From Niveispirillum irakense DSM 11586 (lineage in GTDB: Bacteria > Pseudomonadota > Alphaproteobacteria > Azospirillales > Azospirillaceae), in contig NZ_AUCG01000016.1 of assembly GCF_000429645.1 (NCBI RefSeq), positions 682,001-746,000 on the forward strand: a stretch of 64,000 nt of DNA, in the 5' to 3' direction. Shown in pieces: positions 19,706 through 56,303 of this stretch (within the stretch, counting starts at the first letter, position 1; every line of letters starts with the position of its first letter). A program made the position numbers and the translations under genes. The notes beneath the pieces are model-generated. The model was not told where the DNA came from and ran no database searches. It saw nothing but the letters and a program-made list of their open reading frames with translations.

Positions 19706-20776
19706 ATGATGCGACGCTATCTGAGCTTATCCCTGGTTTTCCTGTCCGGCTTTTTCGCTCTCTCCTCTTCAGCCTCAGCGGAGGAGACAAACCCAATGGA
19801 CTTGAATAAGGTCGTTTGCGATCAAGCAGCCCATTACTCCCGCGAAATGATCTCTGAATCACGGGAGGGATGGGTGGAATTGCGTTTCACCATGAAGCCA
19901 GATGGCAGGTTCACTGATATCGAAGTTGTTTCTTTCTTCGGGGAAAATTATTTCGCAGAAGCTGCACAAAAAGCTATGGAAAGTTGCCGTTACACGCGAC
20001 CGGATTTGATCTCCCCGCAGGGAACCGAAGTACGCAACCTCAGAACTCCATATTTTTTTAAGCTTGTAGATGGAAAAAGCGAGCGAACCGATAAAGGAAG
20101 CTCCGAAGAAGTTTATAAAAAAATAAGAGTTTCAAAAAATTTACTTAATATTGGAAACATCGAAGAGAGCGAAAAAATATTGAACGAAGCCGAAGCAGTT
20201 AGCCGTAAATTATATGAATATATTCATATTATAATCCAAAGAGCTGTTCTGGAAACGGCGCGTGGACATAAAAATTTATCCCTAATTTATTTGCGTGGTA
20301 TCAGCAAGCATAAACAATACATTCAAGAAAAAGAATTCAGGCAATTGCTGCGTATGCGATTGGCAATTGAGTTAATGGAGGGTCATTATGTCCAGGCTGA
20401 AAAAACGGCATCTGAAATGGCGGAAAAGCCTATGGATGGCGATGAAAAATTACTTGCCCAAGTCGCTCTGTTGAAAGGGGTGATGACTGCGGGCGCGCCG
20501 GTCAGCGTCGCGGGCGAGCTTCCCGCGAACTGTCATCCCGCCTTCTGTGACCTCAAGGAACCGGAATGGTCTTACCTTCCCTATAACCGCACAGTCTCTC
20601 TTGCGAATATCCAAGGGAAGTTGACCAATATATTTTTCCGCTGTGAAAACAAAACAGCAAAATTTAAGGCTGACCCAGATATAACATGGACAATTCCAGA
20701 AAGCTGGGGAAGCTGTTCAATTGATGTAAAAGGTGAACCAGGAACAAAATTTGAACTAATTGATGAATATATATAA
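19706..20776 (+). CDS. Secreted protein with TonB-C-like domain, paralogue 1
   Basis: A 356-residue secreted protein. A signal peptide covers about residues 1-26 (YLSLSLVFLSGFFALSSSASA). A TonB-C-like region follows (about 55-100: GWVELRFTMKPDGRFTDIEVVSFFGENYF, then AMESCRY), then an alpha-helical repeat-like stretch (TPR-like, about 130-250) and a C-terminal Cys-containing domain (PANCHPAFC, NRTVSLAN, then TWTIPESWGSCSIDVKGEPG). It is clearly richer in A/T than the window, with Lys/Ile/Asn-rich codons, although a GC-rich patch occurs at about 20490-20560. It is a tandem paralogue of the next gene. The family and function are unrecognised. Confidence 0.78.
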   Translation: MMRRYLSLSLVFLSGFFALSSSASAEETNPMDLNKVVCDQAAHYSREMISESREGWVELRFTMKPDGRFTDIEVVSFFGENYFAEAAQKAMESCRYTRPDLISPQGTEVRNLRTPYFFKLVDGKSERTDKGSSEEVYKKIRVSKNLLNIGNIEESEKILNEAEAVSRKLYEYIHIIIQRAVLETARGHKNLSLIYLRGISKHKQYIQEKEFRQLLRMRLAIELMEGHYVQAEKTASEMAEKPMDGDEKLLAQVALLKGVMTAGAPVSVAGELPANCHPAFCDLKEPEWSYLPYNRTVSLANIQGKLTNIFFRCENKTAKFKADPDITWTIPESWGSCSIDVKGEPGTKFELIDEYI

Positions 20777-20788
20777 GGATAATCTAAA

Positions 20789-21844
20789 ATGAAAATTTTA
20801 CCGCTTTCGTTTTTGATAACAACACTTATTTTGCCGTTTTCATATGAAACAGCCAATGCACAAACCACCCCTATTTTCAGTTACGATCAAATACCTCTTG
20901 GTAAAATCGACTGTGGGGACATCCGGTTTACAAAAACACCAGAGGGCGCCAGGTTCAGTTGGATAGATATACGCTTTACCGTCCTGCCGAATGGCCGTTT
21001 AGCGGATGTTGAAACCGTCGGCCAAGTCGGCAGAGAAAGTTTCCACGCCGATATCATGCGCGCCTTGTCCAAATGCCGCTTCAGCCAACCCAAGAAGGAG
21101 AATGGTAAGCCCATCGCTGTCCGCAATATCTATACACGCTTCAGCTATATCGAGGCTCCCGCCAAACCCGGCGTTGGTGTGAAAGAGAAGCTGGCCGCCA
21201 GCGAGCAGCTCTTGATACAGGGAAAGCTGGATGAGGCTGCGGCAACATTGGATGAGGCTGAGCAGGCAGCAAATTCTTTCAGTGAAATGTACAATATCAT
21301 AATTAGGCGCGCGCTCCTCATGACCAAACGGGGTCGGGACGACATTGCCCTACGATATCTCCACAGCGTTCCCTTCGCCGCGGTGGATGAGGAGAGGATC
21401 CGCGTGTTGCGCATGCGGCTGAGCCTTGAACTGAAGCTGGGACTGTTGGCCAGTGCAGGGGCAACAGGCAGAAAACTGGCCGACGCCAAGCCTGATCCAG
21501 AGACCACGGCACTCCTTGCGACCCTGGATCAACAACGCCAATTTGGTGCCTCTGGTCAACCGCTGGAAATCCAGGGCAGGGTGCCTGCGGAATGCACCTT
21601 GATGATCTGTGATCCGGCGAAGCCCGGCTGGGAATATGTCCCGACTAATCGCACAATCTCCCTGGCGAACCCGGTCGGACACCTGGATCAGATCGCTATA
21701 CGCTGTACCCATCAGACGCTTATCACCGCCGCTACCATCGGCACCACCTGGACCATCCCCGCCAGCTTCGGCCAATGTGCCGTGGAGGTAACCGGAGAAC
21801 CCGGTGCCACCTTCACCCTTATCGACGAGACGATCCCAAGCTGA
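20789..21844 (+). CDS. Secreted protein with TonB-C-like domain, paralogue 2
   Basis: A 351-residue paralogue of the preceding gene, 12 bases downstream. It has a signal peptide (about 1-24, ending ANA), a TonB-C-like part (IDIRFTVLPNGRLADVETVGQVG, then ALSKCRFSQP), a helical middle region (DEAAATLDEAEQAANSFSEMYNIIIRRALL) and the same C-terminal Cys domain (PAECTLMICDP, NRTISLAN, then TWTIPASFGQCAVEVTGEPG). The first 200 bases are AT-rich, but the rest has the GC content of the host, unlike paralogue 1. Probably periplasmic; function unknown. Confidence 0.78.
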   Translation: MKILPLSFLITTLILPFSYETANAQTTPIFSYDQIPLGKIDCGDIRFTKTPEGARFSWIDIRFTVLPNGRLADVETVGQVGRESFHADIMRALSKCRFSQPKKENGKPIAVRNIYTRFSYIEAPAKPGVGVKEKLAASEQLLIQGKLDEAAATLDEAEQAANSFSEMYNIIIRRALLMTKRGRDDIALRYLHSVPFAAVDEERIRVLRMRLSLELKLGLLASAGATGRKLADAKPDPETTALLATLDQQRQFGASGQPLEIQGRVPAECTLMICDPAKPGWEYVPTNRTISLANPVGHLDQIAIRCTHQTLITAATIGTTWTIPASFGQCAVEVTGEPGATFTLIDETIPS

Positions 21845-35425: not shown

Positions 35426-36358
35426 ATGGCCGACCTTAGCGACAGTCGCTCGCCCCGCGAAGACGGGGCCGAAGAACAGACCTCCTTCAGCCAGCATTTG
35501 CGCGGCTGGCTGCGGTCGATCCTGGGTGTACGCGGGGGCGATACGCTCCGCGATACGATCGAGGAATTGATCGAGGAGAATGAGGGCCAGAAACCCTCAA
35601 TGGCGGAAGGCGAACGCGCCCTTCTGGCCAATATCCTGAAATTGCGCAGCCGCAAGGTCATCGACGCCATGGTGCCGCGCGCCGATATCGTGGCGGTGCC
35701 GGACACCATTTCCCTTCCCGATCTGATCCGCCGATTCTCGGATGAGGCGCATAGCCGCATGCCGGTCTATCGGGAGGAATTGGATGATGTGATCGGCATG
35801 GTCCATATCAAGGACGTGCTGACCTGCGTGGCCGCCGGCAAGCCCTTTGATATGGCCGCCATCACCCGCGATATGATGATCGTCGCCCCCTATATGCCGG
35901 TGCTGGACCTGCTGCTGAAAATGCGCCAGACCCGCCAGCATCTGGCGCTGGTGGTGGATGAATTTGGCGGCATTGACGGGCTGATCTCCATCGAGGATCT
36001 GGTGGAGGAGATTGTCGGCGAAATTGAGGACGAGCATGACGAGGCCGCCGAACAGCGCCTGGTCCCGCGCCCCGATGGCACCCTGACCCTGGATGCCCGC
36101 CTGCCGATAGAAGAGTTTGAGGAGCAGCTTGGCCGCTATTTCGATCCGGAAGAGCTGGAAGAGGTGGATACGATCGGCGGGCTGGTCTTTGCCATGGCCG
36201 GCCGCGTCCCTTCACCGGGTGAACGGTTCGACCATCCCAGCGGCCTGCAGTTCGAGATCATGGAAGCCGATCACCGCCGCATCAAGCTGCTGCGTGTGCA
36301 TAACCTGACCGTACCGGGCGCATCGGACGGGGAAGGCTTGCACCGCGCGTCGGCTTAA
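35426..36358 (+). CDS. corC: CorC/HlyC-family CBS-domain protein
   Basis: A 310-residue cytoplasmic protein. Paired CBS domains cover about 70-200 (VMVPRADIVAVPDTIS, HSRMPVYREELDDVIGMVHIKDVL, then FGGIDGLISIEDLVEEIVGEI), followed by the C-terminal CorC_HlyC domain (DARLPIEEFEEQLG, GGLVFAMAGRVP). Such proteins are linked to Mg/Co efflux and membrane integrity. miaB-phoH-ybeY-corC-lnt is a conserved series, but here lnt is separated by a foreign-looking glycosyltransferase. Confidence 0.94.
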   Translation: MADLSDSRSPREDGAEEQTSFSQHLRGWLRSILGVRGGDTLRDTIEELIEENEGQKPSMAEGERALLANILKLRSRKVIDAMVPRADIVAVPDTISLPDLIRRFSDEAHSRMPVYREELDDVIGMVHIKDVLTCVAAGKPFDMAAITRDMMIVAPYMPVLDLLLKMRQTRQHLALVVDEFGGIDGLISIEDLVEEIVGEIEDEHDEAAEQRLVPRPDGTLTLDARLPIEEFEEQLGRYFDPEELEEVDTIGGLVFAMAGRVPSPGERFDHPSGLQFEIMEADHRRIKLLRVHNLTVPGASDGEGLHRASA

Positions 36359-36393
36359 AGACCATCAAGGGTTAAGTTAACCTGCTACAGGGG

Positions 36394-36454
36394 CCGGTAG
36401 CGCGTGTTCGTTTGGCTTATGAAGCAATCACGCCAAGACCGAATGCGCTACCGG
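36394..36454. repeat. Long imperfect inverted repeat behind corC
   Basis: CCGGTAGCGC (36394-36403) and GCGCTACCGG (36445-36454) are perfect 10-bp arms around a 41-base centre that can partly pair further (TTTGGC with GCCAAG). It lies at the edge of the AT-rich insertion between corC and lnt. It could end the corC transcript, or mark a recombination boundary. No T tract is visible. Confidence 0.6.
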
Positions 36455-36494
36455 ATCTCCCTTGTTGGTCAGATATGGTGCCAAACTCTATATT

Positions 36495-37415
36495 TCAGCG
36501 CCAGAAGCGGTGGTTCATCGAGAGGTGAACCTTCCAGGACTTTGGTAATTTATGTTCCATACGACCGAGCTTATAGGCGCCATATTTCAGAAAAGTCCTC
36601 AGGATAGCTGATGGTATCAGCGCCGGGGAGTTTTTATAAAGATACTTCAATTCTGATTTTACAAACTTAACACCTTCACCAGATGCACCCCCGAATTTTT
36701 GCAAAATCCAGGCTTCCCGCGTATGTAATACGCCAATGTCAAAATAACGCTTAAAGTCCTGGATTACATTGTAGCTGTGAGAATGGAAGACGACTGCCTT
36801 CGAAGCATATATTTTTTTCCAGCCTGCAACGAGAAAGCGGCCTGCGGTCACGACATCCTCACCAAATATCGTTTGGGAGGGGAAACCACCAACAGATCTT
36901 AAAGCTTCTGCACGGTAAGCAGAAAATGAGTTCGAACAAAATGTAGCCTTGATCCCAAATTTTCTAGCATTTTCCAACGAAATGACATTATCGGTGTCGG
37001 CGTAATTGAATAATCTCGCATGGGCTTCAATTGGTTCAGCGCCAGGGCGGGGTAATTGTCTGCCATATGCCATTCCGACTTCTTTATCTGAGAATGGCCG
37101 AAGAATTTCTTCAATCGAAGTCGGACTGGCTAAATAAGCGTCCTGTGTCATGAAGACGATTATGTCCATATCAGACATAAAATCGGCACCAAGTTGCCGC
37201 GTTCCACCATGATCAAAATCTGCCTTATTTATGATTTTAAGAGGAATATTATTCCCCATAATAATATTCTGTGTATCATCCGATGATGATGAATCAATAA
37301 ATAAAATTTTATCGAATTTTTTGGTCTGAATTTTCAAACTGTCTAATAGATTGTTTATGTCACTTCCAGCATTTAGAGTCGGGACAACAAGACCAACTTT
37401 AAATACATCCATCAT
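36495..37415 (-). CDS. Family 2 glycosyltransferase, rhamnosyltransferase-like
   Basis: A 306-residue GT-A-fold enzyme. N-terminal VGLVVPTLNAGSDINNLLDSLKIQTKKFDKILFIDSSSSDDT, the DxD-like region (VFMTQDAYLAS), then RQLPRPGAEPIEAHARLFNY and SAYRAEALRSVGGFPSQTIFGEDVVTAGRFLVAGWK place it with rhamnosyltransferases of O-antigen or exopolysaccharide loci. The ATG at 37415 follows a GGAG site. Codon use is strongly A/T-biased against the surrounding DNA, and it lies between corC and lnt on the opposite strand, so horizontal acquisition is likely. Confidence 0.85.
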   Translation of the reverse strand: MMDVFKVGLVVPTLNAGSDINNLLDSLKIQTKKFDKILFIDSSSSDDTQNIIMGNNIPLKIINKADFDHGGTRQLGADFMSDMDIIVFMTQDAYLASPTSIEEILRPFSDKEVGMAYGRQLPRPGAEPIEAHARLFNYADTDNVISLENARKFGIKATFCSNSFSAYRAEALRSVGGFPSQTIFGEDVVTAGRFLVAGWKKIYASKAVVFHSHSYNVIQDFKRYFDIGVLHTREAWILQKFGGASGEGVKFVKSELKYLYKNSPALIPSAILRTFLKYGAYKLGRMEHKLPKSWKVHLSMNHRFWR

Positions 37416-37752
37416 AATTATCTCCACTAAAAATAGTACGTAATCAAAAATTACGTTCAATCACATAAAAATGTTAGTTATTAACGCGGCCCGCCATGAC
37501 AGGCCGCATCAGTCTGGCTGTGAGGAAATTTACATACTGTTTCTCTGCCTCAAAATTGGCTGATTTGCATCGTTGGAATCACCATTCAGCGCTTCTATGA
37601 TCAAAACGGGCAAAATCAGTATCTCGGCGATTTATAGGGGGTTTGGCGTCTGGGAGCAAGCAGACGAGCCTCATATACCGTTTGAGAACAAGCAGACGCG
37701 CCTCGTATACAATGCTGGAAACCGTGCGCCGGCCCTTTGCCACAGAGATATC
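37416..37752. other. AT-rich leader between the glycosyltransferase and lnt
   Basis: No gene is convincing here, though an lnt-frame extension is open from 37573. The left part is AT-rich and must contain the glycosyltransferase promoter. The right part holds two imperfect 24-base direct repeats at 37655-37678 and 37687-37710, and the lnt start region. Confidence 0.5.
37655..37710 (+). repeat. Pair of 24-base direct repeats upstream of lnt
   Basis: Positions 37655-37678 and 37687-37710 share the pattern A-CAAGCAGACG-GCCTC-TATAC with three differences, at a 32-base spacing (about three helical turns). The repeats could be a tandem protein-binding site for lnt control or a slipped duplication. 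Confidence 0.7.
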
Positions 37753-39375
37753 ATGACCACCCTTGATGCCCAGACCTTCGGGCCCCGTTTCGCAGGTCGC
37801 CTTGGCATGTTGACCGGTTGGCGTCGCTATGCAGCCGCGATGCTGGCGGGGGCGGTGGCGACGTTGGCCCTGCCGCCATTCCATCTGATCCCGCTGCTCT
37901 GGCTATCCTTTCCCGTCCTGCTCTGGCTGATGGCCGGGGCGGAAAAGCCGAAGCAGAGCTTCTGGATCGGCTGGTGCTTTGCCTTTGGCCATCATGTGCC
38001 GGGGCTCTATTGGATTTCCGTCGCCCTGTTCGTGGATATCGGGCGTTTCTGGTTCATGCTGCCGCCGGCCGTACTGGGGCTGCCGGCGGTGCTGGCGCTT
38101 TTTGCCGGTTTGGGATGTCTGGTCCATCACCTGCTGGTGCGGCGGTTCGATCTGGGTTCCCTGTCATCGGCCCTGCTATTCGCCTTGTGCTGGGTGGCCA
38201 TGGAATGGATACGGGGTCATGCCTTTACCGGCTTTCCCTGGAACCTGATCGGCTATGTCTGGATGCCGGTGCTGCCGGTGCTGCAGAGCCTGTCCCTGGT
38301 CGGCACCTATGGCCTGTCACTGGTAACAGTGGCAGTCGCCGCCCTGCCGGTGCTGCTGGGCGATGCCAAGCGCCCGCTTGGCCACACAATCCGCCCGGCA
38401 CTGGCCGGGTTGGGCGTTCTGGTCCTGCTGGCCGGGTGGGGCGGCTGGCGGCTGGCAGCAGACGGGCAGGGGACTGTGCCGGGCGTGATGCTGCGGCTGG
38501 TCCAGCCCAATATCGACCAGAGCCTGAAATGGGCCGCCGGTGCCAAGCTGGCAAACCTGCGCAAAACTATTGCTCTTTCAGCCGCCGAGGGCTGGGAGAA
38601 TGTCACCCATGTGATCTGGCCGGAAACGGCCATCCCCTATTTCATGCAGGTGGGCGGGGCGGGTGAAAGCCAGGTGCTGGCGCAGAGCGTGGGCCGCATC
38701 GCCCCGCCGCAAGGCGCGCTGATCACCGGTGTGCCGCGCCTGGGACAGGATGGGGAAGGGCGGGAGCGCTATTATAACAGCCTGATGGCCATCACCGCCG
38801 ATGGCACGATCACCGCCAGTTTCGACAAGTTCCATCTGGTGCCGTTTGGGGAATATCTGCCGCTGCGGGACTGGCTGCCGGATGGAATCAACGCCGTGGC
38901 GGCATCAGCCGCCGATTTTACCCCCGGCCCCGGTCCGCGCGGGCTGCATCTGGCGGGGCTTCCCGCCTTCAGCCCGCTGATCTGTTACGAGGTAATTTTC
39001 CCCGCCGCCGTGATGCCCGGTGATGATGGGATGGGCCGCCCGCGCTGGATGCTGAACCTGACCAATGATGCCTGGTATGGGCGCAGCACCGGCCCCTATC
39101 AGCATTTCGCCATCACCGCTGCCCGTGCGGTGGAGGAGGGTGTGCCCATCGTCCGCGCCGCCAATACCGGCATTTCCGGTGTGGTCGATGCTTATGGCCG
39201 CGTCACGGCCCGGCTGGGCCTGGGGGTGGAGGGGCATATTGATGCGGCGCTGCCGGAAGCAACGGCCAAGCCGCCGCTCTACGCCCGGTTTGGCGACTGG
39301 ATGCTGTTGGGGTTGATGGCACTGGTCGGCGGGCTGGTCATCCTGTTCCGCCGCCACGGATACCTGCAGAAGTAG
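37753..39375 (+). CDS. lnt: Apolipoprotein N-acyltransferase
   Basis: A 540-residue inner-membrane enzyme that N-acylates the lipoprotein Cys with phospholipid acyl chains. The N-terminal half has several membrane helices (LAGAVATLALPPFHLIPLLWLSFPVLLWL and following). The nitrilase domain shows the catalytic triad Glu in WPETAIPY, Lys in FDKFHLVPFGEYLP and Cys in LICYEVIFP. The ATG at 37753 is chosen; the 60-residue upstream extension (from 37573) contains the direct repeats and is unlikely coding. Confidence 0.95.
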   Translation: MTTLDAQTFGPRFAGRLGMLTGWRRYAAAMLAGAVATLALPPFHLIPLLWLSFPVLLWLMAGAEKPKQSFWIGWCFAFGHHVPGLYWISVALFVDIGRFWFMLPPAVLGLPAVLALFAGLGCLVHHLLVRRFDLGSLSSALLFALCWVAMEWIRGHAFTGFPWNLIGYVWMPVLPVLQSLSLVGTYGLSLVTVAVAALPVLLGDAKRPLGHTIRPALAGLGVLVLLAGWGGWRLAADGQGTVPGVMLRLVQPNIDQSLKWAAGAKLANLRKTIALSAAEGWENVTHVIWPETAIPYFMQVGGAGESQVLAQSVGRIAPPQGALITGVPRLGQDGEGRERYYNSLMAITADGTITASFDKFHLVPFGEYLPLRDWLPDGINAVAASAADFTPGPGPRGLHLAGLPAFSPLICYEVIFPAAVMPGDDGMGRPRWMLNLTNDAWYGRSTGPYQHFAITAARAVEEGVPIVRAANTGISGVVDAYGRVTARLGLGVEGHIDAALPEATAKPPLYARFGDWMLLGLMALVGGLVILFRRHGYLQK

Positions 39376-39858: not shown

Positions 39859-40758
39859 TTATCGGCGCAGGATGCGGTTCAGCACACTGTCCAACTGGTC
39901 CAGGTTTTTATAATGGATCTGCAAAGTGCCCTTCGGCCCATTGGAGGAAAGCGTCACTTTCAGCCCCAGAACGTGCGACACTTCTTTTTCCAGCGCCACC
40001 GTATCCGGGGCTTTTTCCTTCGGTGCTGCCGGCTCGGCACTGGCCGGGGCGTCTGCCATACGCTTCACCAGCGCTTCGGTCTGGCGGACATTCAGCCCAT
40101 GCTTCACCACTTCCTGCGCCAGGGCCAGCGGGTCGGCCGCCGTCAACAGGGCGCGGGCATGGCCCATGGACAGGCTGCCATCCTGCACCATTGCCTTCAC
40201 CGCATCGGGCAGACCCAGCAGCCGCAGCATATTGGCGACATGGGATCGGCTTTTGCCGACGGATCGGGCAAGATCTTCCTGCGTATGCTGGAATTCATCC
40301 ATCAACCGCTTGAAGCCTTCCGCCTCTTCCAGCGGGGTCAGGTCGGCGCGCTGGATATTCTCGATCAGCGCAATTTCCAGCGCCTCACGATCGGTCAGCG
40401 TGCGCACCAGGACCGGGATTTCATGCAGGCCCGCAAGCTGGGCAGCACGCCAGCGCCGCTCACCGGCAATGATCTCGTAAGAGGTCTGGCCGGGGGCGGC
40501 CGCCGGGTCCTTGCGGACCAGCAGGGGCTGGAGCACACCGCGCTCCCGCACGCTTTCCACCAGCGCCGACAGATCATTCTCATCGAACTTGCGGCGCGGC
40601 TGGTATTTGCCGGGATGGACCTGATCAATCGGCAACAGCCGGGTCAGGCGGACCCGGTCAACCTGTTGCTCCTCCTCATTCCCCGTCGCTTCGCCAAACA
40701 GGGCGGACAGGCCGCGTCCCAGCCCCGTCCGCTGCGGGTTCTTTCTCGGTTCATCCAT
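39859..40758 (-). CDS. parB: Chromosome-partitioning protein ParB
   Basis: A 299-residue CTPase and centromere-binding protein. It starts GLGRGLSALFGE, with the ParB/sulfiredoxin N-terminal fold (LTRLLPIDQVHPGKYQPRRKFD; YEIIAGERRWRAAQLAGLHEIPVLV, including the GERR box), the HTH for parS recognition (TQEDLARSVGKSRSHVANMLRLLGLPDAV) and a C-terminal dimer region ending LDQLDSVLNRILRR. It overlaps the end of parA by 8 bases. Three parS sites lie within 1-11 kb. Confidence 0.97.
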   Translation of the reverse strand: MDEPRKNPQRTGLGRGLSALFGEATGNEEEQQVDRVRLTRLLPIDQVHPGKYQPRRKFDENDLSALVESVRERGVLQPLLVRKDPAAAPGQTSYEIIAGERRWRAAQLAGLHEIPVLVRTLTDREALEIALIENIQRADLTPLEEAEGFKRLMDEFQHTQEDLARSVGKSRSHVANMLRLLGLPDAVKAMVQDGSLSMGHARALLTAADPLALAQEVVKHGLNVRQTEALVKRMADAPASAEPAAPKEKAPDTVALEKEVSHVLGLKVTLSSNGPKGTLQIHYKNLDQLDSVLNRILRR

Positions 40759-41554
40759 AAGCCAACTGCCGCTTCCGCTCACGCTTCAACATCTCACCCG
40801 CCAGATGGATATAGGCCTGCGCGCCGGCCGACTTGTGGTCGTACAGCAGCACCGGCTTGCCATGGCTGGGCGCCTCTGACACCCGCACATTGCGGGGGAT
40901 CACCGTCTCATAGACCTTCTCCCCGAAGAAGCCGCGCACATCGGCGGCCACCATGTCGGAGAGATTGTTGCGACGGTCGAACATCGTGAGCACCACGCCA
41001 TTGATTTCCAGCGTGGGGTTGAAGGCCCGCTTGACCCGCTCGATGGTGCGGATCAGGTGTGACAGGCCTTCCAGGGCATAGAATTCACATTGCAGCGGCA
41101 CCAGCACGGCATCCGCCGCCGCCAGCGCGTTCAGGGTCAGCAGGCCCAATGCCGGGGGACAATCAATCAGGATATAGTCGAAGCCGCCGCTGGATTTCTC
41201 CAGGCTGTCTTTCAGGCGATATTCCCGCCGCTCGACATTGACCAGTTCCACCTCGGCCCCGGACAGATCGACATTGGCCGTCACCACCCACAGGCCGGGA
41301 ACAGAGGTGGCAACCGCCACCTCTTCCACCGCCAGATCGGCGAACAGCAGGTCATAAATGCCGAATTCACGCGCGGCCTGGGGAATACCCAAGCCGGTGG
41401 AGGCATTGCCCTGCGGATCATTATCGATGATCAGCACGCGCTTACCCACCGCCGCCAGGGCCGTGGCAAGGTTGATCGTCGTCGTCGTCTTACCCACGCC
41501 ACCCTTCTGGTTGGCGAGCGCGATGACATGGGCGCGGGGAGCGGGGACGGGCAT
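40751..41554 (-). CDS. parA: Chromosome-partitioning ATPase ParA
   Basis: A 267-residue deviant-Walker ATPase that moves ParB-parS complexes. The motif is ALANQKGGVGKTTTTINLATAL, with LIIDNDPQGNASTGLG, YILIDCPPALGLLTLNAL and VLTMFDRRNNLS in the usual order. The ATG at 41554 is preferred over an in-frame TTG at 41572. It is followed by parB and preceded by rsmG, the classic rsmG-parA-parB order. Confidence 0.97.
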   Translation of the reverse strand: MPVPAPRAHVIALANQKGGVGKTTTTINLATALAAVGKRVLIIDNDPQGNASTGLGIPQAAREFGIYDLLFADLAVEEVAVATSVPGLWVVTANVDLSGAEVELVNVERREYRLKDSLEKSSGGFDYILIDCPPALGLLTLNALAAADAVLVPLQCEFYALEGLSHLIRTIERVKRAFNPTLEINGVVLTMFDRRNNLSDMVAADVRGFFGEKVYETVIPRNVRVSEAPSHGKPVLLYDHKSAGAQAYIHLAGEMLKRERKRQLAYG

Positions 41555-41603
41555 GCCGGACACTCTCTTCAACCTCTCTGTTACGGCCGATTGCGTGACG
41601 GGA

Positions 41604-42209
41604 TCATCGCGGAGAAATGTCTGACAGGCGGAGCAGGGTGCCTGCAGGGTCGGTCAGGCTGGGAAACTGCTCAATCCGCATATTCCAGGAATCCCGCACG
41701 GCGGTCAATTCATCCGCAGCCGTTTTCCCTTTGGGGAACAGGCAAAATCCACCCGGTTTCAACAATCCATGCGCCCAAGGCAGCAAAAGCGACAGATCGG
41801 CCAGGGCGCGGGCCGTGACCAGATCAGCCGGCGGCACATCCGCTACCTCGATCCGCACCGCATGCACAGTCACCGGGGCCCCGGTCAACCGGGCCGTTTC
41901 CCGCAAAAAGGCTGCCTTGCGCACATCTGATTCGACCAGATGCACCGCCGGCACGCCCAAGATCGCCATGACCAAGCCAGGGAAACCGGCGCCAGAGCCG
42001 AGATCGACCTGCAGCGTCGTCCCCTCCGGCACATGCTGAAAAAGCTGGGCACTGTCGGCCAGATGCCGGCCCCAGATATCATTCAGCGTGCTTTTGGCAA
42101 CAAGGTTGATCGCCGGGTTCCATTTGCGAAGCTGGGCCTCATAGACCTGCAGCTTCTCCAGTGTTTCACGTGAAACACGGAACTGCTCCTGGAACTGCGC
42201 CGGCGTCAT
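41604..42209 (-). CDS. rsmG: 16S rRNA (guanine527-N7)-methyltransferase RsmG
   Basis: A 201-residue Rossmann-fold methyltransferase. SAM-binding motif VDLGSGAGFPGLVMAI, then ESDVRKAAFLRETARLTG and ARALADLSLLLPWAHGLLKPGG. The 5' part of the gene carries an intact parS 16-mer (42162-42177) encoding the peptide VSRET, so coding and ParB binding overlap. It lies between mnmG and parA. Confidence 0.96.
   Translation of the reverse strand: MTPAQFQEQFRVSRETLEKLQVYEAQLRKWNPAINLVAKSTLNDIWGRHLADSAQLFQHVPEGTTLQVDLGSGAGFPGLVMAILGVPAVHLVESDVRKAAFLRETARLTGAPVTVHAVRIEVADVPPADLVTARALADLSLLLPWAHGLLKPGGFCLFPKGKTAADELTAVRDSWNMRIEQFPSLTDPAGTLLRLSDISPR
42162..42177. promoter_or_regulatory. parS centromere site (perfect palindrome), inside rsmG
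   Basis: TGTTTCACGTGAAACA matches the canonical ParB site exactly. It lies in the first part of the rsmG coding region, about 1.4 kb from parB. It is the most canonical of the three parS-like sites. Confidence 0.95.
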
Positions 42210-51036: not shown

Positions 51037-51052
51037 TGTTTCACGTGGAACA
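51037..51052. promoter_or_regulatory. parS-like site between qor and dnaQ
   Basis: TGTTTCACGTGGAACA is a hybrid of the two other sites, with one asymmetric position. It lies between the qor stop and the dnaQ stop, in convergent intergenic space, the most neutral location of the three. Confidence 0.85.
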
Positions 51053-53268: not shown

Positions 53269-53886
53269 TCAGGCCGGCAGCAGCCGGCGCACACGCAGGA
53301 AATCCAGCAGCGGTAACAAGGGCAGACCCTGAATGGTGAAATGGTCGCCCTGGATCCGGTTGAAAAGCTGAGCGCCCAACCCTTCCACCATATAGGCGCC
53401 GGCACAGCCCAGCACCGCATCACCCGCCGCGTCCAGATAGCGATCAATAAACGCATCGGATAAGGACCGCATAGTCAGGCTGGCCTGACCGATATGGTGC
53501 CAGACGCGGGCGCCATTATGGAAAACGACGACGGCGGAATAAAGCGTGTGGGTCCGCCCCGACAGTCGGCGCAAATGGTCAGCGGCATCCGCCCGGTTCA
53601 CCGGCTTGTCAAACCAGTGCCCGTCACATTCCAGCATCTGGTCAGCGCCGATAATATAGGGGCCAGTATATTTGCGGGCGAGCTTGGAGGCTTTCAGATC
53701 GGCCAGCGCTTCCGCCACTTCAGACGGGCGCATGCCGGCGGCACGGCCGGCATGCTTCATCTCATCCTCATCCACCCGTGCCGGCTCGGCATGAACCTCA
53801 ATGCCGGCCGCTTCCAGCATAAGGCGGCGGGACGGGCTGGCCGACGCCAGGATCACCGGCTCCGATGACAGGAAGGCGCTCATCAT
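53269..53886 (-). CDS. maf: Maf-like nucleoside triphosphate pyrophosphatase
   Basis: A 205-residue Maf/YceF-type protein. LASASPSRRLMLEAAGIEVHAEPARVDE is the N-terminal signature, and IGADQMLECDGHWFDKP with the SGRTHTLYSAV block follow. Maf proteins hydrolyse modified or canonical nucleoside triphosphates and prevent misincorporation. The ATG pair at 53886/53883 overlaps the ppsR stop. It lies between ppsR and aroE. Confidence 0.95.
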   Translation of the reverse strand: MMSAFLSSEPVILASASPSRRLMLEAAGIEVHAEPARVDEDEMKHAGRAAGMRPSEVAEALADLKASKLARKYTGPYIIGADQMLECDGHWFDKPVNRADAADHLRRLSGRTHTLYSAVVVFHNGARVWHHIGQASLTMRSLSDAFIDRYLDAAGDAVLGCAGAYMVEGLGAQLFNRIQGDHFTIQGLPLLPLLDFLRVRRLLPA

Positions 53887-54851
53887 TCTTGCTCTTCGGT
53901 CTTGGGGGGAAGGGTCTGGTCCGAGGCAAGGGGCAGGGATTGGGCCGCGGCCTTGGCCATCTGTGCCATCTGCGGACGCCGTCGGGCCAGGATCATCATC
54001 ACTTCCGCCGCTGTCTCCTCAATCGACCGACGGGTCACGTCAATAACCGGCCAGCCCTTGCGGGTATAGAGGCGGCGGGCCTCCATCAACTCATCCCGGA
54101 CCTTTTCCGGATCGGTGTAGTTGGTGTCGTCACCCTGGTTCAACAGGCGCAGGCGGTTACGACGGATCTGGACCAGCCGCTCAGCATCCTTGGTCAGGCC
54201 GACAATCAGCGGCCGGGTCAACTGGTCCAGCTCCGTCGGCAGGGGACATCCGGGCACATAGGGGATGTTCGCCGCCTTCACCCCGCGATTGGCCAGATAG
54301 ATGCAGGTCGGCGTCTTCGACGTGCGGCTGACGCCAACCAGAATGACATCGGCATCGTGCAGACCCCAGGCGCTTTGCCCGTCATCATGGTTGAGCGCGA
54401 AATCCATCGCGTCGATGCGGTCAAAATATTCCGCCGTCAACGCATGCTGGCGACCGGGCTTGCTCTGGCTCTGCAGGCCGAGGAAGGCGGCCAGCGCGTT
54501 GATCAGCGGGTCCAGCACGGAGATGCAGGGAATGGCCAGTTCGCGGCAGGTATCCTGCAGGCGGTGGCGCAGCTTTTCATTCACCAGGGTGAACATGACC
54601 AGACCGGGATTTTCCCGGATACCCTCCACCACCATGTCCAACTGGCGTTCGGTCCGGACCAGATTCCAGAAATGCTCGATCGGCTCGGCATGGTCGAACT
54701 GGCTGGTACAGGCGCGCGCCACGGAATTGATCGTCTCACCCGTCGCATCAGAGACCAGATGCAGGTGAAAAACCTTCACCTGGCCTTGCAGGTCAGCCCG
54801 GGGGGGACGGGGCGGGGGGGGTGGAAAGGGGGGCGGAGGGGTTGTGGGCAT
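53883..54851 (-). CDS. ppsR: Pyruvate, water dikinase regulatory protein (DUF299/PPSR type)
   Basis: A bifunctional kinase/phosphorylase of the DUF299 family that controls PEP synthase or PPDK by ADP-dependent phosphorylation. FHLHLVSDATGETINSVARA opens the family domain, GVSRTSKTPTCIYLANRG is the P-loop, and IDVTRRSIEETAAEVM closes it. The ATG at 54851 would add a Pro-rich run (TPPPPFPPPPPRPPRAD) before the domain, and starts at 54923/54935 are also open; the true N terminus is uncertain. It is the first gene left of oriC. Confidence 0.94.
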   Translation of the reverse strand: MPTTPPPPFPPPPPRPPRADLQGQVKVFHLHLVSDATGETINSVARACTSQFDHAEPIEHFWNLVRTERQLDMVVEGIRENPGLVMFTLVNEKLRHRLQDTCRELAIPCISVLDPLINALAAFLGLQSQSKPGRQHALTAEYFDRIDAMDFALNHDDGQSAWGLHDADVILVGVSRTSKTPTCIYLANRGVKAANIPYVPGCPLPTELDQLTRPLIVGLTKDAERLVQIRRNRLRLLNQGDDTNYTDPEKVRDELMEARRLYTRKGWPVIDVTRRSIEETAAEVMMILARRRPQMAQMAKAAAQSLPLASDQTLPPKTEEQE

Positions 54852-55020
54852 CTTTGGGGACCAATATGGAAGAAGCAGGCATTTACGGGTAACCGGCCTT
54901 TTTGATCCCTGGCAAGCAGCCATTTTACCGCCCACTTGCCGGCTTGCGGATTAACCGTGCGGGTTTGGGCTGGAATCAAGGACGAATCACTTTTCCCATT
55001 GACTCTATCCCCAAAATCCA

Positions 55021-55241
55021 ACCTGTCCCGAAAGCCAGAGAAACTGCGGCTTACAAACTGTATGTACGCATGTTTTTCCACAGAAGTTTTCCACATGTGT
55101 GGACCCATCCCCGATCTGTGGACAAATATGCGGACAAACATGAATTCCCGTTATCCACAGGCCCTACTTCATCTCCAATAAACTTTCTAAAAAAGTACAA
55201 TAGAATAGAAGGGCATGGGATAAGGTCGCCAAACCGGTTTC
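55021..55241. promoter_or_regulatory. Chromosomal replication origin (oriC)
   Basis: Five DnaA-box-like 9-mers are seen within 90 bases: TTTTCCACA at 55074-55082 and 55087-55095, TTATCCACA (consensus) at 55151-55159, and in reverse TGTGGACAA at 55117-55125 and the weaker TGTGGACCC at 55098-55106. An AT-rich stretch at about 55178-55209 is a candidate unwinding element. The region lies between ppsR and hemE, matching the Caulobacter origin neighbourhood, and the genes on both sides run outward. Confidence 0.93.
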
Positions 55242-56303
55242 ATGCAAGCGATGGATAGAATGACCGCATCGATAAACGCCCCGACCAAGCCGATGCTGGC
55301 AGCCCTTGCCGGGCAGAAGCTGGAGCGGCCGCCTTTCTGGCTGATGCGACAGGCAGGCCGTTACCTGCCAGAATATCGCCAGGTCCGCGCACAGGCAGGC
55401 GGGTTCCTGGATCTCTGCCTCAACCCGGAACTGGCGTGCGAAGTCACCCTGCAGCCCTTGCGCCGCTATGGGATGGATGCCGCCATTCTGTTTTCCGACA
55501 TCCTGATCGTGCCATGGGCTCTTGGCCAGGGTTTACGGTTTGCGGAAGGGGAAGGCCCCGTTCTGGACGCCATCCGTGATCAGGCTGGCCTGTCCAGGCT
55601 GGACCCTGCAGGCCTGCAGCGGCGGGCCGCACCGATTTATGAAACGGTGTCACGCATTCGGGCCGCCCTGGACCCGCGTACCGCCCTGATTGGGTTCGCC
55701 GGCTCGCCCTGGACCGTCGCCTGCTACATGGTGGAAGGGGGCGGATCGAAGGAATATGCGCAGGTAAAGCGCTTCGCCTATGGCGATCCGGTCGGCTTTG
55801 CCCGGCTGATCGACTTGCTGGTGGACGCGACCACCGATTATCTGGCCGCCCAGGTGGAAGCCGGCGCGGAAATCCTGCAGCTTTTCGATAGCTGGGCCGG
55901 TGTGTTGAGCGCCGCCGATTTCCGGCGGTTCTCCATCGAGCCGACGCGGCGCATCGTGGCGGCGCTGAAGCAGCGCTATCCCCATGTGCCGATCATCGGT
56001 TTCCCGCGCATGGCGGGGCTGAACCTGGAAGCCTATGTTGCCGCCACCGGTGTGGATGCGGTGTCACTGGACCCCGGCGTGCCCCCGGAATGGGCGGCCA
56101 AGCACCTGCAGCCCAAGGTGACCGTGCAGGGCAATCTGGACCCCGTATTGCTGCTGACTGGCGGTCAGGGGCTGGATGATGCAACCAACCATCTGCTGCA
56201 GACGCTGGGGCAGGGGCCGTTCATCTTCAATCTCGGCCATGGCATCATCAAGGAGACGCCGCCGGATCATGTGGACCGGCTGGCCAAACTGATCCGTGGC
56301 TGA
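55242..56303 (+). CDS. hemE: Uroporphyrinogen decarboxylase
   Basis: A 353-residue heme-pathway enzyme. [23 protein letters not shown] is the signature N-terminal substrate motif. Further blocks are [39 protein letters not shown] and the HGI-containing [18 protein letters not shown] codons at 55242, 55251 and 55260 are all possible. It is the first gene right of oriC. Confidence 0.97.

Follow-up and report, generated by a model that had tools for sequence, protein, structure and literature searches.

The replication origin of Caulobacter was placed experimentally and, according to the accessible part of PMC1914354, it sits between hemE and COG1806. In the available text of PMC4285127, TCCCCA is given as the Caulobacter W-box. 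The opening of the Bacillus subtilis origin is described, in the portions seen of PMC8287927 and PMC10721633, as the capture by DnaA of 3'-GAT-5' trios beside a box, and the published BUS rule requires that no fewer than three trios with A in the middle, 3'-NAN-5', lie at most 16 bases from a DnaA-box.

The locus considered here lies in a window of 64,000 bases, the whole stretch of DNA that was analysed (C2:682001-746000; positions without a contig name are those of the window). The first-pass annotation had proposed it as the chromosomal origin, noting that the Caulobacter origin lies beside hemE in the same neighbourhood, in agreement with the part of PMC1914354 cited above. The placement of oriC between ppsR and hemE was supported by the observed box cluster and its conservation, the T-A skew switch, the same-genus genome G005, the parS positions and the synteny. 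With a probability of about 0.95, the main chromosome of this bacterium, an alphaproteobacterium close to Azospirillum and Nitrospirillum, has its oriC at 55005-55241. The kinship was derived from the hemE matches, the closest among the best 80 records being those of Nitrospirillum and Azospirillum (66-67%). It is very probably an ordinary, well-supported alphaproteobacterial oriC of the already known hemE/COG1806 kind, and its position gives the fork directions for the genes of this genome, which belongs to a little-studied group.

DnaA Boxes and Composition of the ppsR-hemE Region

The region is bounded on the left by ppsR (COG1806/DUF299, Kinase-PPPase; 53883-54935, minus strand; PF03618, E 3.3e-96, domain from residue 58), the true start codon of which is uncertain (GTG 54935 or a later one), and on the right by hemE (uroporphyrinogen decarboxylase; 55242-56303, plus strand; PF01208, E 1.1e-120), and the two genes diverge, as had been claimed. 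Five DnaA boxes were found in 86 bases, four with at most one mismatch to TTATCCACA and one with two, which bears out the five box-like 9-mers within 90 bases, one of them exact, that were reported at first. Boxes 1 and 2 (55074-55082 and 55087-55095, plus strand) are both TTTTCCACA, with one mismatch to TTATCCACA, and lie 13 bases apart from start to start, the distance given earlier; as a cooperative pair they are plausible only. Boxes 3 and 4 are inverted (minus strand), the former being TTGTCCACA with one mismatch (55117-55125) and the latter TTGTCCGCA with two (55129-55137). The core box (55151-55159, plus strand) is an exact TTATCCACA that adjoins the proposed unwinding element, and it is abutted by a conserved 9-mer, GAATTCCCG (55142-55150, plus strand). 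In E. coli, the R1 box TTATCCACA has its 3' end pointing at the DUE. A weak box, CTATCCCCA (55005-55013, plus strand), contains the W-box consensus TCCCCA mentioned above. Past the core box, a GGCC spacer is followed by the trio-like series CTA CTT CAT CTC (55160-55175, plus strand), which resembles DnaA-trios imperfectly, and the 31 bases at 55164-55194 form a strand free of G (plus strand) that is proposed as the first strand-opening site (DUE); the remaining AT-rich stretch and the hemE leader occupy 55195-55241.

The density of boxes was compared with 300 first-order Markov simulations of the window, in which the maximum per 90 bases was two boxes with at most one mismatch (12 of 300 simulations) against four observed, and four boxes with at most two mismatches (6 of 300) against five observed. 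The pattern TTWTCCACA occurred four times in the window versus 0.53 expected, a count reached by none of 100 shuffles, and 87 times in the 5.45-Mb assembly, where the reversed control pattern occurred 33 times; within the assembly, three such sites in 90 bases occur at C2:737074-737159 and nowhere else. The AT-rich stretch said to lie next to the boxes is real (68% AT at 55160-55209), though not unique in the window, since 0.65% of the window's 50-base stretches have a GC content as low as that of the lowest 50 bases in it, and in steps of 1000 bases the GC content fell below that of 55-56 kb at 20-21, 36-38, 44-45 and 62-63 kb. The whole intergenic stretch (54936-55241) has 53.6% AT versus 32-40% in the 10-kb stretches of the contig that were read. 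Elsewhere in the window, the GC content drops to 41% (20001-21000) and 47-52% (36001-38000) in a genome of about 63% GC, and these stretches are possible recent insertions.

Three GANTC sites (54973, 54984 and 55001; 54973-55005), possible CcrM methylation sites, were found in 306 bp, versus 0.40 expected at the window rate. Two of them form GAATC-AAGGAC-GAATC (GAATC-N6-GAATC, 54973-54988) between ppsR and the boxes, and the GANTC-N6-GANTC pair was present in 8 of 11 same-genus loci, the alignment stopping short of the position in the other three. The pair is a possible CcrM/GcrA-sensitive promoter or origin switch. A reading frame of the GcrA family was found, as two pieces of a single frame. 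The sequence TGGGATAA, at 55216-55223 on the side of the AT-rich stretch that faces hemE, is shared by 10 of 11 same-genus loci, G005 having TAGGATAA instead; it may be part of the hemE promoter or an inverted, weak half-site for DnaA.

Strand Skew, parS and dnaA

In the contiguous last 299 kb of C2, from which the minima for this genome were taken, the cumulative T-A skew reaches its minimum at C2:737397, which is window position 55397, a short way into hemE and roughly 240 bases from the boxes, and the G-C skew has its minimum at C2:727938, 9 kb to the left of the boxes on a nearly flat stretch; as the assembly consists of 19 contigs, both are contig-level and not whole-chromosome minima. 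From the 50 kb on the left of the locus to the 50 kb on the right, the T-A skew changes from -0.041 to +0.062 and the G-C skew from -0.007 to +0.025. The first half megabase of C2 was read in 13 alternating 20-kb stretches (260 of 500 kb), and the G-C skew was negative in 22 of 26 ten-kb pieces. The genome G005, of the same genus, consists of 5 contigs, and its contig C1 (3,397,866 bases) was sampled in 46 stretches of 20 kb (920 kb, extrapolated between). Both cumulative curves showed minima at the stretch edge 2590001 and maxima at the edge 817501, which are separated by about half the contig, with a counter-slope around 1.6-1.7 Mb. Within a contiguous 80 kb of this contig (2550001-2630000), the G-C minimum was found at 2592461 and the T-A minimum at 2594031, and the homologous core TTATCCACAGGACC, a 14-mer at 2592492-2592505, lies 31 bases from the G-C minimum.

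A different picture was given by G012, a single-contig genome of another genus read in 20 stretches, in which no skew minimum was found at hemE and the local minima in 160 kb lay about 60 kb away. The core box of G012 lies at 2881709 and the G-C curve has a peak close to hemE, at 2885253. With the G-C skew negative in 10 of 12 spread stretches, the skew of this genome reveals no origin; the pattern may come from rearrangement, an assembly fault or another cause. This result argues against a skew minimum at hemE as a general rule, and the confidence in the origin reading was slightly lowered. The first-pass annotation had named a skew minimum located elsewhere as the finding that would speak against an origin. 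The T-A minimum of this contig and the G-C minimum of G005 fall at the respective locus, the G-C minimum of this contig is 9 kb off on its flat stretch and G012 has none there.

A perfect parS, TGTTTCACGTGAAACA, was found at 42162-42177 and a parS-like site with one mismatch at 51037-51052. These were the only two sites in the assembly within one mismatch of TGTTTCACGTGAAACA, and both lie near the boxes, 13 and 4 kb away. Likewise, in all four relatives searched, every parS-like site (two to four each) was located within about 25 kb of hemE. The minus-strand reading frames at 39859-40782 and 40751-41572 are taken by us, from their family features, to be parB and parA, respectively. The parA frame ends 13.5 kb from the first box, and the earlier distance of about 14 kb between parAB and the origin holds. 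The single dnaA match was found at C2:302511, 434 kb from the boxes. The dnaA neighbourhood was rejected as an origin because no TTWTCCACA occurs nearby (none in C2:169880-C2:329479) and because of its distance of 434 kb from the skew switch.

Conservation of the Locus

Synteny was evaluated in 110 loci, made up of 80 contig records (the best 80 of at least 594 hemE matches) and 30 genomes (this one and 29 of its family, being the best 30 hemE matches only), with some species possibly occurring in both sets; hemE was present in 53 of 59 relatives searched. A divergent ppsR was found by tblastn upstream of hemE in 103 of the 110 loci, and within 700 bases in 102, the present one included. Among the eight loci missing it within 700 bases, seven had no tblastn match (L029, L033, L044, L049, L051, L091 and L092), L049 containing only 100 bases upstream of hemE, and L047 had a partial ppsR match 2.4 kb off. 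Boxes with at most one mismatch numbered at least one in 93 of the 102 ppsR-hemE loci, at least two in 76 and at least three in 49.

Among the 11 same-genus loci, no variation was seen in the inverted pair TGTGGACAA / ATGCGGACA, the latter forming part of box 4; box 3 was present in all 11 loci, as was box 1 with at most one mismatch, and the core box was exact in nine and changed at one base in two. Two boxes at the 13-base spacing were found in 9 of 11 loci, eight of them with two TTTTCCACA and G008 with TTGTCCACA as the second; the pair was absent from G003 and G007. The core has the form G(A/G)AT(T/C)NCCG - TTATCCACA - GGNCC or GGNAT/C in the majority of family loci and is followed by the G-free strand. 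The G-free run after the fourth base had a median of 31 and was at least 20 bases long in 21 of 29 family loci (L139 had no box); among 9492 control positions taken from these intergenic regions, 0.67% reached that length. The eight loci with runs shorter than 20 belong to g6 (three), g8 (two), g3, g5 and g10 (one each), and for g6 and g8 it is possible that the homologous core is not the box closest to hemE.

Of the 102 loci, 48 contain a core pattern consisting of a weak 9-mer abutting NNN[TG]CCACA, located 71-223 bases ahead of the hemE match; Sphingomonadales and Reyranella are represented among these loci. It was missing in 54 of 102, four of which are same-genus loci with a box but a differing 9-mer or box. 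Non-family loci detected by this pattern numbered 21, and in 17 of them the upstream 9-mer ends in TCCCCG or TCCCCA, which resembles the Caulobacter W-box TCCCCA; the pattern itself permits this reading. The combination of TTATCCACA, GGNCC and C-N-A trinucleotides on a G-free strand into one conserved core would be the new detail that the aligned sequences suggest.

DnaA-Trios and the DnaA Pocket

No trio array of the published kind was found at the core box at 55151. Such arrays were present at the core in 8 of 29 family loci (3/11 same-genus, 3/4 g12 and 2/2 g8), and in 12 of 34 when four Azospirillum records and one Nitrospirillum record were added; shuffled tails contain them in 23% of cases, the family rate is no better, and the rule thus neither shows nor excludes trios. 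The strict rule picked out none of nine representatives, a figure that depended on the locus chosen per genus. These representatives were taken from eight family genera and Nitrospirillum iridis (a genus that may be among the eight), g6 and g8 being omitted for having no clear core. A C-N-A frame (3'-GNT-5') after a spacer of 4 or 5 bases matched 45 of 54 letters versus 29.5 (sd 2.7) when shuffled, and a C-T-A frame matched 52 of 81 in the nine representatives versus 34.4 (sd 3.1), each value reached by none of 20,000 shuffles, for a pattern that was chosen after seeing the sequences and in rows of common descent; the middle T alone matched 7 of 27 versus 6.0.

The frame was also evaluated in a held-out set: of 67 loci, 12 lacked a box, and the other 55 were used with the box as the sole criterion. 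Only a small excess was observed, the C-N-A count being 147 versus 134.1 (sd 6.4), reached by 86 of 3000 shuffles, and the middle T count 61 versus 53.2 (sd 4.1), reached by 113 of 3000. In the 29 held-out tails starting with GG, the corresponding values were 93 versus 74.3 (sd 4.6; 0/3000) and 33 versus 27.3 (sd 3.1; 142/3000). These counts make a trinucleotide frame beside the core box likely and do not demonstrate that its middle base is entirely free. Upstream of hemE in an uncultured member of the Rhodospirillales (L035:3051-3075), five CTA trios were observed directly after TTATCCACT, a textbook-like trio array; the DnaA of this genome has Tyr at the Asn187 position.

In the available part of PMC10721633, which also gives the roles of the pocket residues, Asn187 of B. 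subtilis DnaA reads the middle adenine of the trio. When aligned to 8btg, this residue corresponds to Tyr226 here; Glu183, Ile190 and Glu228 are kept, and Arg202, Ile193 and Asn196 are replaced by Lys, Leu and Lys, respectively. DnaA was matched in 59 of 60 genomes searched, making 61 with the present one, and the Asn187 position was readable in 56 (four matches were too short and one genome had none), with Tyr in 31, Val in 9, Phe in 6, Asn in 3, Ile in 3, Met in 2, Gln in 1 and Arg in 1. Tandem CT[AG] repeats on the hemE strand were counted in the 55 genomes with an origin locus, within 220 bases and not tied to a box. Three or more were found in 3/3 Asn, 3/30 Tyr and 0/22 other genomes, and two or more in three Asn, eight Tyr and one other; the frequency in shuffles was 0.58% for three and 17% for two, and on the opposite strands such runs occurred in 0 and 4 of 55, respectively. 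The difference between Tyr and the others was not significant (Fisher 0.062 for at least two repeats and 0.25 for at least three), and that between Asn and the rest gave 0.0008 at three or more. The three Asn genomes, which are Reyranella-like and carry four or five tandem canonical-type trios (CT[AG], hemE strand) beside hemE, are close kin (two Reyranella and one Rhodospirillales), and the association is thus in effect one observation, a lead rather than a result. Tyr does not exclude canonical runs, given the three Tyr genomes that have them.

It is conceivable, though rather improbable, that in many Alphaproteobacteria the opening element is a relaxed DnaA-trio, 3'-GNT-5', with loss of the Asn187 reader of the middle adenine; the odds of this reading were lowered by the comparison of 8/29 family loci with 23% of shuffled tails. 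A specialist could be surprised by this part of the analysis alone, and the case for it is weak. DnaA-trios without the middle adenine were suspected by Pelliciari et al. (PMC8287927, seen in part), and DnaA homologues could recognise a range of sequences according to the available text of PMC10721633. The legend of the survey figure in PMC8287927 marks the five proteobacterial classes, PMC6669920 yielded no relevant passage, and the titles and abstract openings of the literature surveyed contained no mention of DnaA-trios in alphaproteobacterial origins. The aligned alphaproteobacterial origins, together with the DnaA pocket residues, name concrete candidates for a deviant trio code.

Alternative Explanations and Proposed Working

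Box groups at genes do exist in this genome. At C1:413570-413589 (L109:13570-13589), TTATCCACA and TTTTCCACA form a tandem at a distance of 11 bases, immediately before a frame that presumably encodes a protein resembling the replicative helicase DnaB, and paired boxes also occur on contigs C8 and C11. The C1:413570 group was rejected as a rival origin, since it adjoins the dnaB-like frame and is more probably a promoter under DnaA control, by which the helicase gene might be regulated. By analogy, the boxes between ppsR and hemE could be a DnaA-controlled promoter for either gene, or a DnaA-titration site, with the origin elsewhere, the more so as the intergenic stretch must contain divergent promoters and G012 has no skew minimum at hemE. 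Nevertheless, the skew switch here, both in this contig and in G005, the parS neighbourhood and the synteny with an experimentally placed origin argue against this explanation and make it very unlikely. Still less probable, to the point of being nearly negligible, is a secondary or silent origin, with another site of the same replicon firing in the wild type: the genome is large and lies in 19 contigs, and some relatives have 4-9 contigs (G012 and G017 a single one), which leaves room for further replicons, but dnaA, hemE, parAB and parS are all on this contig and the T-A skew minimum is found here.

For the preferred reading, an oriC at 55005-55241, we infer DnaA binding, an opening site, bidirectional firing and the action of ParB at the locus. 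DnaA would occupy the strong outer boxes (55074, 55087 and the inverted 55117/55129) together with the core box at 55151, from which a DnaA filament, perhaps helped by the abutting weak 9-mer, would cross the GGCC spacer and reach the lower strand of the G-free 55164-55194, and the strands would be pulled apart. The loading of DnaB would come next, with one fork moving right into hemE and another moving left into ppsR, and ParB on the two nearby parS sites would then separate the new origins.

Comparison with Known Systems

The locus shares with the hemE/COG1806 origins of Caulobacter crescentus (Cori) and Rickettsia, as described in the part of PMC1914354 available, the same boundary genes, the DnaA boxes and the AT-rich stretch between them. 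The strong boxes here are TTTTCCACA and TTATCCACA, in contrast to the Caulobacter G-box TGATCCACA (PMC4285127, in the text seen). Unlike Caulobacter Cori, the 306 bp at 54936-55241 contain no strict CtrA site (TTAA-N7-TTAA); two overlapping loose matches (TTWW-N7-TTWW) lie at 55178-55179, inside the AT-rich run. No IHF site matching WATCAN5WTR or WATCAANNNNTTR was found in 54936-55241, and CtrA and IHF control of the Caulobacter type was rejected on the absence of strict sites. In the trinucleotides here the middle base on the trio strand can be A, G or T, unlike that of the 3'-GAT-5' trios of B. subtilis. The exact box, the 4-base GC spacer and a weak abutting 9-mer are features that the locus has in common with the B. 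subtilis BUS, to which a trinucleotide frame of the same strand polarity may be added.
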